Below are positions 3,373 through 6,889 of a DNA stretch of 33,905 nucleotides, piece by piece (the first letter of the stretch is position 1; the number at the start of each line of letters is the position of its first letter). A program made the translations under genes and the position numbers. The notes beneath the pieces were generated by a model. It searched no databases. It was not told the origin of the DNA and was given only the letters and a program-made list of their open reading frames with translations. The DNA is from Nitrosomonas sp. Nm33 (GTDB taxonomy: Bacteria; Pseudomonadota; Gammaproteobacteria; Burkholderiales; Nitrosomonadaceae): positions 1-33,905 of the forward strand of contig NZ_FNPJ01000030.1 in the NCBI RefSeq assembly GCF_900107265.1, written 5' to 3'.

Positions 3373-4128
3373 ATGATCTGGTCAAGAATTAATTTATATG
3401 CTTTAGGAATCCTGATAGGGTTACTACATTTTGCAAGCCATGCATTGGCTGGTTTAGAAAATAATGATCTGGTTAATGCAGCTACACGCGGCAGCTTGTC
3501 CCAAGTGAAAGCATTACTTTCAATGTCTGAGAAAAATTATGAAACACGCGATAAGAATATGGCATTGGTAGGTGCAGTGGAGAATGGCCACGAAAGTATC
3601 GTCAAGCTTTTGCTTGACTCTGGAGCAGACGCAAATGTGAAGGCAAAAAATGGCCGGACTGTGTTTATATTGGCTGCGCAGGATAACCGCCTGGGTATCG
3701 CGCAGGCACTACTTGCTGCTGATGCAGATATAAACGCGGTTACCGACAATGGGCTGACAGCATTGATGTTAGCGTCGCAAAGAAATCACCTGGAGATAGT
3801 GCGCTTATCGCTCGAAACGGGTGTTGATGTCAATGCTGCTACAAATGAAGGTGTTACAGCACTTATGTTTGCATCGCAAGTGGGTAACCAAATCGTTGTC
3901 CAGTATTTGCTGCAAGCAAACGCCAATGTTAATAGCCAAGCAAAAAATGGTGCAACTGCGCTGATGCTAGCCGCACAAAATGGCCATCAAGGAGTGACAA
4001 TGACGCTACTTGCTGTGGGTGCGGAAATTAATACTAAGGCAGAAAATGGTGCGACTGCATTATTGCTGGCTAAAAAATATGATCATAAGGGTGTCATTGA
4101 ATTACTTCAAAAAGCAGGTGCCAAATAG
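3373..4128 (+). CDS. Exported ankyrin-repeat protein
   Basis: A 251-residue protein with a hydrophobic signal sequence (residues 9-24) and a likely cleavage after Ala-Leu-Ala (24-26). About six to seven ankyrin repeats of 33 residues fill the rest. The repeats show the usual pattern of a G-x-T-A-L-M-L-A-S helix start and a V-x-x-L-L-x-x-G-A-D-x-N-A end, clearest at residues 93-125, 126-158, 159-191 and 192-224. A strong ribosome site (AGGAGG) precedes the ATG. Ankyrin stacks bind other proteins and are not catalytic, so the periplasmic partner is unknown. It stands alone, 90 bases after dgt. A perfect 8-bp AT-rich hairpin follows the stop. Confidence 0.85.
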   Translation: MIWSRINLYALGILIGLLHFASHALAGLENNDLVNAATRGSLSQVKALLSMSEKNYETRDKNMALVGAVENGHESIVKLLLDSGADANVKAKNGRTVFILAAQDNRLGIAQALLAADADINAVTDNGLTALMLASQRNHLEIVRLSLETGVDVNAATNEGVTALMFASQVGNQIVVQYLLQANANVNSQAKNGATALMLAAQNGHQGVTMTLLAVGAEINTKAENGATALLLAKKYDHKGVIELLQKAGAK

Positions 4129-4269: not shown

Positions 4270-4929
4270 ATGAATACGCGTGCTTTTACATTAATTGCTT
4301 TATTACTGCTTGCTGGCTGCGGTGAAGGTACATCCCCTGGAACAGATGAATCTTCAACGAGATTCCCGGATGAGATCACTGCCATCAATGAATTGCCTTC
4401 CGTATTTGAAGAAGGATTAACTCCGGAACAAAAGGCTGATTTGCTGAAAAAAATCATGCCAATGGCGGATGATGGATTATCACCTGAAGAACGATTTCTA
4501 AAATTACGCCAGGATGCGGAAGCGGGCGATGCTGAAGCGCAGACTGCTCTTGGTTTCTTGTTCTATTCTGGAGAGGCCATATCCAGGGATGCGACGGGAA
4601 AAATTATGGACTATGACCTTGAATCAGCTGCAGGCTGGTTTCATCGTGCTGCAGAGCAAGGGCATGCGGGTGCCCAATTTAATCTGGGTCTGATGTACGC
4701 CGAAGGTCATGGCGTTCCACAAGATCCCGCCAAAGCAGTGGAGTGGTTTACCAAGGCTGCTGAACAAGGCAACGTGGATGCGCAAAATAACCTCGGTGTC
4801 ATGTATCTGGTAGGCGAGGGTGTGCCTAAAGATATGAATAAAGCGATTGAATGGTTTGAGAAGGCTGCGAAACAGGGAAATGAAGAAGCCAAAGAAAATC
4901 TTAAGGCAATACGAGCCGCGGGAAATTAG
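4270..4929 (+). CDS. Sel1-repeat lipoprotein
   Basis: A 219-residue lipoprotein. Residues 1-16 form a signal peptide ending in the lipobox Leu-Ala-Gly-Cys, so Cys17 should be lipidated. A polar linker follows, then about three Sel1-like (TPR-type) repeats from residue 88 to 204. These carry the hallmark A-Q-x-N-L-G-x-M-Y, G-x-G-V-P-x-D and A-x-x-W-F-x-K-A-A-x-Q-G blocks. The first repeat has an insertion (about 100-118). Sel1 repeats are adaptor surfaces in envelope or signalling proteins, and no enzymatic domain is present. AGAAGGG lies about 12 bases before the ATG. The specific function is unknown. It may act with the preceding exported ankyrin protein, but this is inferred from adjacency alone. 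Confidence 0.85.
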   Translation: MNTRAFTLIALLLLAGCGEGTSPGTDESSTRFPDEITAINELPSVFEEGLTPEQKADLLKKIMPMADDGLSPEERFLKLRQDAEAGDAEAQTALGFLFYSGEAISRDATGKIMDYDLESAAGWFHRAAEQGHAGAQFNLGLMYAEGHGVPQDPAKAVEWFTKAAEQGNVDAQNNLGVMYLVGEGVPKDMNKAIEWFEKAAKQGNEEAKENLKAIRAAGN

Positions 4930-5014: not shown

Positions 5015-5245
5015 CTAGAATTTGTTATAAGAGATGACTTCTTTTAAAGGAAGTTGTCCACCACGTGGCCATGCTTCCTTGATTCCCCTGCCAATAGCAA
5101 CAAACATTGAGATCACATGGTCTTCAGGCAGTTTAATCAGTTTTGCGACTGCTTCAAAATCAAATCCATCCATCGGGCAAGAAGCATAACCCATTTCTTG
5201 AGCTGCTAGCATAAGTGTCATTGCTGCCATTCCGCATGAACGCAT
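5015..5245 (-). pseudogene. Truncated nitroreductase-family gene (C-terminal part)
   Basis: The minus strand encodes 76 residues resembling the last third of a nitroreductase (FMN-dependent NAD(P)H oxidoreductase). It has an M-x-L-A-A-Q-E-M-G-Y-x-S-C-P segment, then D-F-E-A-V-x-K-L-I-K-L-P-E-D and a closing W-P-R-G-G. Full-length members are ~180-220 residues and begin with an Arg-rich FMN-binding motif. Nothing like that is found upstream on the minus strand between 5246 and the cytochrome P460 gene. The 5' two-thirds is therefore missing, and the remnant cannot bind FMN normally. It is unlikely to be expressed as a working protein. Confidence 0.7.
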
Positions 5246-5284: not shown

Positions 5285-5313
5285 TTGACGCAGTATGCAG
5301 CTCTGTCTACCAT
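5285..5313 (+). promoter_or_regulatory. Candidate sigma-70 promoter of cytochrome P460
   Basis: TTGACG (5285-5290, five of six to consensus) and TACCAT (5308-5313, four of six) are separated by 17 bases. Transcription would begin about 65-70 bases before the P460 start. This is seen by eye and not tested. Confidence 0.45.
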
Positions 5314-5384: not shown

Positions 5385-5990
5385 ATGTCACAGTTTAAAA
5401 GAACGTTGTTAGGTGTTTTGACGCCATTATTGTTATCTGGTCTGCTAGTTGGCCAGGCAACTTCTGTTGCTGCTGGTCAGCATGATGATCGTCATGAACA
5501 TGGCAGAACAACCTATGCTCATTTCAACAAGGATGGAGAGCTGCTAACACCTAAAAATTACCGTGAATGGATTTTCGTTGGTGCACCTGTGACACCAAAA
5601 GATATGAACGATGGCAATCCAGCATTCCCTGAGTTTCACAATGTGTACATTGATCCTGTTAGCTGGGCACACTGGAAGCAAACTGGAAAATTTCGTGATG
5701 GTACAATTATTGTTAAAGAATTGGTTAGTGTCGGTGCCGAGGAAGCGGCCAGTGGCAATGGTTACTTTCAGGGAGAATACCTCGGCATAGCTGCTACAGT
5801 CAAGGATTCCAAGCGTTTTGCTGATCGATTTAATAACTGGGCATACTTTGGTTTTGAAAGCTATGAAAGCAAGAGCGCAGCCCCACAAACTGATGAATCT
5901 TGCAACACTTGTCATAAAGAAAATGCCGCTGAAGACAACGTGTTTACCCAATACTACCCCGTATTGCGTGCTGGCAAACCTGGAAAGTAA
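5385..5990 (+). CDS. cytL: Cytochrome P460 (periplasmic, distal-glutamate position is Ala)
   Basis: A c-type cytochrome of the P460 family. In ammonia oxidisers these oxidise hydroxylamine and NO in the periplasm. Counting from ATG 5385 (201 aa), residues 1-30 are a signal peptide with likely cleavage after V-A-A. The heme attachment motif CNTCH is at 173-177. Lys111, in the T-I-I-V-K-E-L-V segment, aligns with N. europaea Lys70, which cross-links to the heme and creates the P460 chromophore. In an ungapped local alignment (YLGIAATVKD against YIGLEASVKD, recalled), Ala136 takes the place of N. europaea Glu96. That glutamate is the distal base required for hydroxylamine oxidation. Residues 32-39 are a His/Asp-rich stretch just after cleavage. 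The frame opens six bases earlier at a TTG, but ATG 5385 follows AGGGAT and is preferred. Its own promoter and terminator suggest a single-gene transcript. Confidence 0.93.
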   Translation: MSQFKRTLLGVLTPLLLSGLLVGQATSVAAGQHDDRHEHGRTTYAHFNKDGELLTPKNYREWIFVGAPVTPKDMNDGNPAFPEFHNVYIDPVSWAHWKQTGKFRDGTIIVKELVSVGAEEAASGNGYFQGEYLGIAATVKDSKRFADRFNNWAYFGFESYESKSAAPQTDESCNTCHKENAAEDNVFTQYYPVLRAGKPGK

Positions 5991-6316: not shown

Positions 6317-6889
6317 ATGAAAACTAATCAAGCAAATGGAAAAATTTTAGCGCCAGAACTCCAGACAGTCAGTTGGCTTAATACACCTCAACCTATTACA
6401 TTAGCATCATTGCGCGGTAAGGTTGTATTACTCCATGCTTTTCAGATGCTGTGCCCAGGCTGTGTGCAAGTTGGTATTCCTCAGACGCAAAGGATATTCG
6501 AAGAATTCAATTCAGATCAAGTTGCCGTGATTGGCCTCCATACGGTCTTTGAGCATCATTCAGTAATGGGTCGTGAAGCACTTGAAGTATTTGCTTATGA
6601 GTATCGATTGCGTTTTCCGATTGGGATCGATAAGCCGAATGATCAGCATGTCATTCCGCATACCATGATGACTTATCAGATGCAAGGCACACCCACGACT
6701 ATTCTAATCGATAAGACTGGTCATCTGCGCATGCATAAATTTGGTCATGTCAGTGATTTTATATTGGGTGTATCAATAGGTACTTTGCTTGCAGAAGAGG
6801 TCGATGAAACCGAACAGCTACAGTCTGCTCTAAGCAAGCAGAATGAGGCTGAATCTGTAGGGTGTGGGACGGATGGTTGTGCAGTTTAA
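6317..6889 (+). CDS. Thioredoxin-fold (TlpA/redoxin-like) protein
   Basis: A 190-residue redoxin with the resolving motif Cys46-Pro-Gly-Cys49 after a K-V-V-L-L-H-A-F strand. The cis-proline region G-T-P-T-T is near 124-128, followed by the I-L-I-D-K-T-G-H-L hairpin typical of TlpA/AhpC-like folds. No signal peptide or membrane segment is present, so it should act in the cytosol, unlike most TlpA proteins. The tail holds two further cysteines, Cys183 and Cys188, in V-G-C-G-T-D-G-C-A-V, which could form a second disulfide or a metal site. AAAGGTAG precedes the ATG. The substrate is unknown. Disulfide reductase or peroxide-related roles are plausible, and proximity to cytochrome P460 does not show a link. 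Confidence 0.8.
   Translation: MKTNQANGKILAPELQTVSWLNTPQPITLASLRGKVVLLHAFQMLCPGCVQVGIPQTQRIFEEFNSDQVAVIGLHTVFEHHSVMGREALEVFAYEYRLRFPIGIDKPNDQHVIPHTMMTYQMQGTPTTILIDKTGHLRMHKFGHVSDFILGVSIGTLLAEEVDETEQLQSALSKQNEAESVGCGTDGCAV

Follow-up and report, generated by a model that had tools for sequence, protein, structure and literature searches.

Cytochromes P460 provide a route from hydroxylamine to N2O, and comparative genome papers treat their genes under the single name cytL in the passages available to us (PMC4940428, PMC10472526, PMC3764937). The window analysed here, a whole stretch of 33,905 bp (positions 1-33,905 of contig NZ_FNPJ01000030.1, Nitrosomonas sp. Nm33, GCF_900107265.1, forward strand), contains such a gene with alanine at the position of the catalytic distal glutamate, which raises the question of why a cross-linked heme is kept without its reaction. 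The answer that we favour, with a little better than even confidence, is that the gene would encode an exported, periplasmic Ala-type P460 that is kept by selection, that from homology is not a hydroxylamine oxidase, and that presumably binds NO. The features concerned are as follows.

5285..5313, + strand: predicted sigma-70 promoter TTGACG-17-TACCAT, conserved upstream of the Ala-type gene (44/46 upstream stretches)
5385..5990, + strand: Ala-type cytochrome P460 gene, 201 aa, orthologue of NsP460 of Nitrosomonas sp. AL212 (phmmer to 6amg, 7.5e-82; PF16694, 4.2e-30; tree)
5385..5474, + strand: likely Sec signal peptide region, about residues 1-30, end approximate (from reading the sequence alone)
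5625..5627, + strand: Phe81 codon, aligning with the distal cap Phe76 of NsP460 (alignment column; cap role from PMC11928373)
5637..5639, + strand: His85 codon, aligning with His80 of NsP460 and Arg44 of N. europaea CytL (alignment)
5715..5717, + strand: Lys111 codon, position of the heme cross-linking lysine (NsP460 Lys106, CytL Lys70; K106L column of 6w6n)
5790..5792, + strand: Ala136 codon, position of the catalytic distal carboxylate (NsP460 Ala131, CytL Glu96; A131E/A131Q column)
5901..5915, + strand: CxxCH heme c attachment motif, Cys173-His177 (sequence)

The PF16694 domain of the protein scores 105.1 bits against a cut-off of 27, which places it in the cytochrome P460 family. Among solved structures those of the AL212 P460 are closest to it, and it is a full-length orthologue of NsP460 (6amg), with 106 of 157 residues identical from AL212 residue 40 on and with the Lys, Phe cap, His, Ala and CxxCH all shared. 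An AlphaFold model of middling confidence finds its best matches in 6amg and 2je2. The open reading frame and the match to the AL212 structures rule out a chance alignment or a mis-set reading frame. The preliminary description had pointed to Lys111 and the CxxCH motif, and both are present in the sequence; Lys111 sits in the NsP460 K106 column, so the protein is not a cytochrome c'-beta, a type defined by having no Lys at the cross-link position. Ala136 occupies exactly the column marked by the AL212 A131E and A131Q mutant structures, which bears out the claim of alanine at the distal-glutamate position, and the protein thus lacks the distal carboxylate of catalytic P460s (Glu96 or Asp102 type). 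The pairing of Ala136 with CytL Glu96 holds as a column, CytL having one extra residue between Lys and Glu; the spacing given for the AL212 protein was right, the alignment being gap-free from Lys111 to Ala136. N. europaea CytL (NeP460; 2je2, 2je3) has Glu96 and Arg44 where the window protein has Ala136 and His85. The window protein also differs from NsP460, in carrying extra acidic residues (E52, E119, E120, E183 and others).

Our account of NsP460 follows the review PMC11928373, the primary papers being Smith 2019 and Smith and Lancaster 2018. According to the review, NsP460 is cross-linked and its hydroxylamine oxidation stays at background; the A131E variant reaches about half the activity of N. 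europaea CytL, and A131Q, A131L and A131D remain at background. Hydroxylamine is bound with a Kd of 8-18 mM and ferric NO with a Kd of ~8 uM, and the potential is low, at -424 mV. The precedent given in the preliminary description (alanine, a cofactor that forms, inactivity until glutamate is present) agrees with this account. PMC6427953 puts NsP460 forward as a half-way house and tallies other residues in 144 P460 sequences; among the paper listings and passages covered there was no survey of the distal residue, which is no proof that none has been made. Orthology and the pocket residues together make hydroxylamine oxidation unlikely for the window protein, and the conclusion that it is not a hydroxylamine oxidase is well supported by homology to a protein that shares the cofactor residues and proved inactive when assayed, in a host that has a separate Glu-bearing CytL. 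The role proposed in its place, binding of NO or hydroxylamine, would survive in its first half only: a hydroxylamine-binding role is implausible because the Kd of NsP460 is too weak, and the affinity for ferric NO favours the other.

The host belongs to the N. communis group of ammonia oxidisers, with AMO and cytochrome c554 genes, and its genome holds three PF16694 genes. Besides the window gene, contig C68 carries a CytL orthologue (L002) with Glu in the motif DYIGLEASVKDS (E 6.3e-108 to 8gar); this is the second, Glu-bearing copy for which a search had been suggested, and it, not the window gene, is the host orthologue of NeP460. The third gene (L003, contig C110) is c'-beta-like and has Met in the Lys column and Ala in the distal one, the same two residues that Table 2 of PMC11928373 lists for N. 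europaea c'-beta (CytS, 7s5o), whose clade lies apart from the window protein. PMC4940428 gives two cytL genes to N. communis Nm2 and says the same of AL212; the genome that fits Nm2 (G002) has one Val-type and one Glu-type P460. Is79 (G017) has two PF16694 matches, one Ala-type and one c'-beta-like, and no third.

The five nearest relatives of the window protein have Ala (L005, L007, L009) or Val (L006, L008) at the distal site, which rules out a sequencing quirk or a lone mutation in Nm33; the Val of L006 (G072, Nm34) and L008 (G002) is a natural bulkier variant. Among the best 80 of 130 relatives, the closest named ones are N. communis mag.23 (92%), N. communis Nm44 (90%) and Nitrosomonas sp. 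Nm34 (90%). In the same set the 61 top loci (L165-L225) belong to the Ala clade, one of them in pieces, L242 from a Nitrosomonas MAG has Glu, and all 18 of the remaining, more distant loci have Lys and Glu (12 titled as groups outside the host family, 6 only as Gammaproteobacteria or bacterium). Across 85 Nitrosomonas genomes the Ala/Val type is found in 68, a count that takes in the broken copies of G005 and G084, and the Glu type in 27; 19 genomes have both and 9 neither, several of these 9 being incomplete. Within the same family the Ala type occurs in at least 9 genomes of genus g3 (Nitrosospira, Nitrosovibrio) and at least 8 of genus g4, partial counts that derive from 35 places from other genera among the matches listed; at least 14 c'-beta-like places lie within the genus. 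The Ala type is therefore no oddity but old and widespread in Nitrosomonas. No relative was confirmed among viral contigs, and a viral origin was rejected.

Masking of the Lys and distal columns leaves the 48 Ala/Val rows in a single clade (100/97), in which the window protein groups with 6amg, away from the Glu rows; this is the P460-family tree, with the distal residue mapped, that had been proposed as a check. Four fragments, and rows more than 90% identical with the same residues, were left out of the trees. In the KF-rooted tree the Ala/Val clade is nested within a series of Glu rows. Support is low at some of the backbone forks (31/29, 37/0), and the data do not reject a tree that unites all Glu rows (AU p 0.312), so Glu is favoured, short of proof, as the older state. 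The ancestor of the Ala-type clade, which spans the host family, was probably a P460 that had the catalytic Glu. Within it Lys changed to Leu once (four Nitrosospira rows, L126, L127, L130 and L131; 100/97). From its strain and Leu105 we infer that L131 (also L222) of Nitrosospira sp. NpAV is NpCP-beta, which PMC11928373 names a cytochrome c'-beta and whose Leu105Lys mutant gains the cross-link. NpCP-beta shares the distal Ala with the window protein and differs from it in having Leu for Lys (residue 105 by our own count) and no cross-link. The origin of this 'c'-beta' thus seems to lie within the Ala clade of P460s and to be separate from that of CytS, and a series Lys+Glu, Lys+Ala, Leu+Ala can be read on the tree.

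Among 83 distinct Ala-type sequences the distal site is Ala with Lys in 77, Ala with Leu in 4 and Val in 2, with no acidic residue in any, and Lys is retained in 79. All four Ala codons are used at this site in the 77 Lys-Ala sequences (GCT 41, GCC 17, GCG 13, GCA 6). For pairs with dS of 0.15-1.0, and from about AL212 residue 45 on, the median dN/dS is 0.046 in the Ala-type clade (108 pairs, range 0 to 0.306) and 0.040 in the Glu clade (26 pairs); the window gene gives 0.046-0.075 against five close relatives. By entropy among 151 columns the distal site ranks 38th and Lys 49th, so that both are well conserved and others more so. The low dN/dS, the conserved Lys and the lack of an acid at the distal site therefore indicate a gene that is selected without the carboxylate.

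If the window protein behaves like NsP460, its Lys-heme cross-link would form, NO and, weakly, hydroxylamine would bind, and hydroxylamine would not be oxidised. The signal peptide region makes export and periplasmic heme attachment likely, and in the periplasm the protein would bind NO from the nitrification pathway, leaving the oxidation of hydroxylamine to NO/N2O to the presumed HAO route and the separate Glu-bearing CytL. We infer the NO-binding role because the retained Lys needs a reason and because the cross-link of CytL keeps the axial His from being lost to NO (PMC5872139); selection may have kept the Lys since it would stop NO from driving off that His, so that NO binding stays reversible. 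In N. ureae Nm10, CytL makes up 0.08% of the proteome (PMC5960693), and this protein is presumably Ala-type, as the Nm13 gene (L201) is. According to PMC4940428, N. ureae and Is79 release NO massively and do not re-consume it, for which reason the Ala-type protein fits badly as a strong NO scavenger; the result does not single out P460, because both also lack annotated NO reductases. The same strains gave more N2O than others in aerobic hydroxylamine oxidation, which the authors tie to NO release and regard as abiotic; by themselves these data are compatible with N2O formation by the Ala-type protein. N. communis showed strong linear anoxic N2O formation from hydroxylamine (PMC4940428), for which its own Glu CytL would be a fitting candidate. 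By our own reasoning, a potential as low as that of NsP460 should hinder formation of the ferrous NO form under the aerobic conditions of the periplasm. Two further points count against the favoured reading, namely that four Nitrosospira members persist without the Lys and that AL212, too, is credited with two cytL copies.

The gene would be made constitutively and as a single gene, the latter from the 326 bp gap; a terminator-like site was not found directly 3' of it. The TTGACG-17-TACCAT pattern was present in 44 of 46 upstream stretches (45 of the 61 named Ala-type loci, mostly those matching from residue 1, and the window), against a mean of 0.7 and a maximum of 4 in 200 first-order resamplings. 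In a pattern search on one strand and without shuffles, no FNR or NsrR site was common to the 46 stretches. Upstream of the window gene the best FNR match departs from the pattern at 3 of its 10 fixed bases, and the full NsrR pattern is off by 6; the NsrR half-site pattern has one mismatch there, the sole such case among the 46, and NO control of the gene is unsupported, though conceivable. No partner operon is evident among the neighbours, a redoxin gene being common to 17 of 62 loci. Genes for gloB, a methyltransferase, RNase H and a dnaQ-like exonuclease lie near the Ala-type gene in 40 of the 62 loci (among the best 80 of 130 relatives); some of the other 22 are short contigs or come from other genera. 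Seven of eight Glu-only genomes have a gloB match and keep the redoxin-gloB-methyltransferase order, with no P460 match better than E 0.13 up to 0.6-0.9 kb past the redoxin gene. G005, which has a Glu CytL, holds a broken Ala-type copy in place with gloB beside it, and the copy of G084 is in two pieces, possibly through an assembly fault. The pattern at this syntenic site looks like vertical descent with losses.

Some other reaction, peroxide- or NO-dependent for example, that needs the cross-linked heme and no distal carboxylate is a possibility that we rate as rather unlikely. It would suit the strong purifying selection and the retained Lys; formation of the cross-link is itself peroxide-dependent in relatives (PMC11928373), and the lack of NO re-uptake reported for Is79 and N. 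ureae is in its favour, but the neighbouring genes offer no candidate substrate or evident partner. That the protein has remained a hydroxylamine oxidase, drawing its carboxylate from another residue (Glu119 or Glu120, for instance) or acting under special conditions, is improbable. The acidic residues missing in AL212 and the N2O that Is79 and N. ureae form in hydroxylamine oxidation (PMC4940428) speak for it; the background activity of NsP460 and the failure of A131D, A131Q and A131L to restore activity, which mark the position as demanding (PMC11928373), speak against it, as does the Glu CytL already in the host. We give almost no credence to a decaying relic of a former oxidase, which could claim the copies of G005 and G084 and the P460-free site of seven Glu-only genomes (the eighth has no gloB match), but is contradicted by the intact frame, the low dN/dS against close relatives and the conserved promoter, cap, Lys and CxxCH.

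Taken beyond this locus, the NO-binding reading would make the commonest P460 of Nitrosomonas a dedicated non-oxidase whose cross-link selection maintains for NO handling and not for hydroxylamine oxidation, in a clade recording a route from Lys+Glu through Lys+Ala/Val to Leu+Ala, so that cytL counts need splitting; we hold this wider claim tentatively, at somewhat below even. If true, it would lay out a stepwise route from enzyme to cross-linked binder to uncross-linked c'-beta-like protein (the NpAV gene), and 'cytL' tallies in comparative N2O work should be split by distal residue. In most Nitrosomonas genomes (68 of 85) the P460 belongs to the type whose tested member showed no activity, and because this type is widespread and can share a genome with a Glu gene, surveys lump two kinds together when they count every such gene as the same enzyme. 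One residue then gives an annotation rule. The AL212 biochemistry was known already; what is added is how widespread, old and constrained the Ala type is, a modest advance that brings no new kind of protein.

Several further observations concern the surroundings and the wider family. Upstream of the P460 gene, an ankyrin-repeat gene (3373-4128, + strand) and a Sel1-repeat gene (4270-4929, + strand) are adjacent and occur in 7 and 9 of 62 loci. The interval from the Sel1 gene to the P460 promoter contains the C-terminal part of a nitroreductase (5033-5245, - strand; PF00881 positions 117-167 of 167, E 1.9e-14), a remnant with no full-length frame there. The gene adjoining P460 on the other side (6317-6889, + strand) encodes an AhpC/TSA-redoxin protein and is the one found beside gloB in the seven Glu-only genomes without P460 there. 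A further kind of PF16694 gene keeps the cross-link Lys but has Phe in the distal column and lacks it in the cap column. In 21 of the 24 loci with such a gene, identical rows counted once, it comes second, behind a Glu-type P460 gene of the same strand (L087, L134, L226, L233, L236, L237 and others, from Beta-, Gamma- and Alphaproteobacteria); a literature search gave no fitting title for this pair. The stop-to-stop frames of the paired genes mostly abut or overlap, those of L241 being ~0.6 kb apart, and the conserved pair possibly encodes two subunits.
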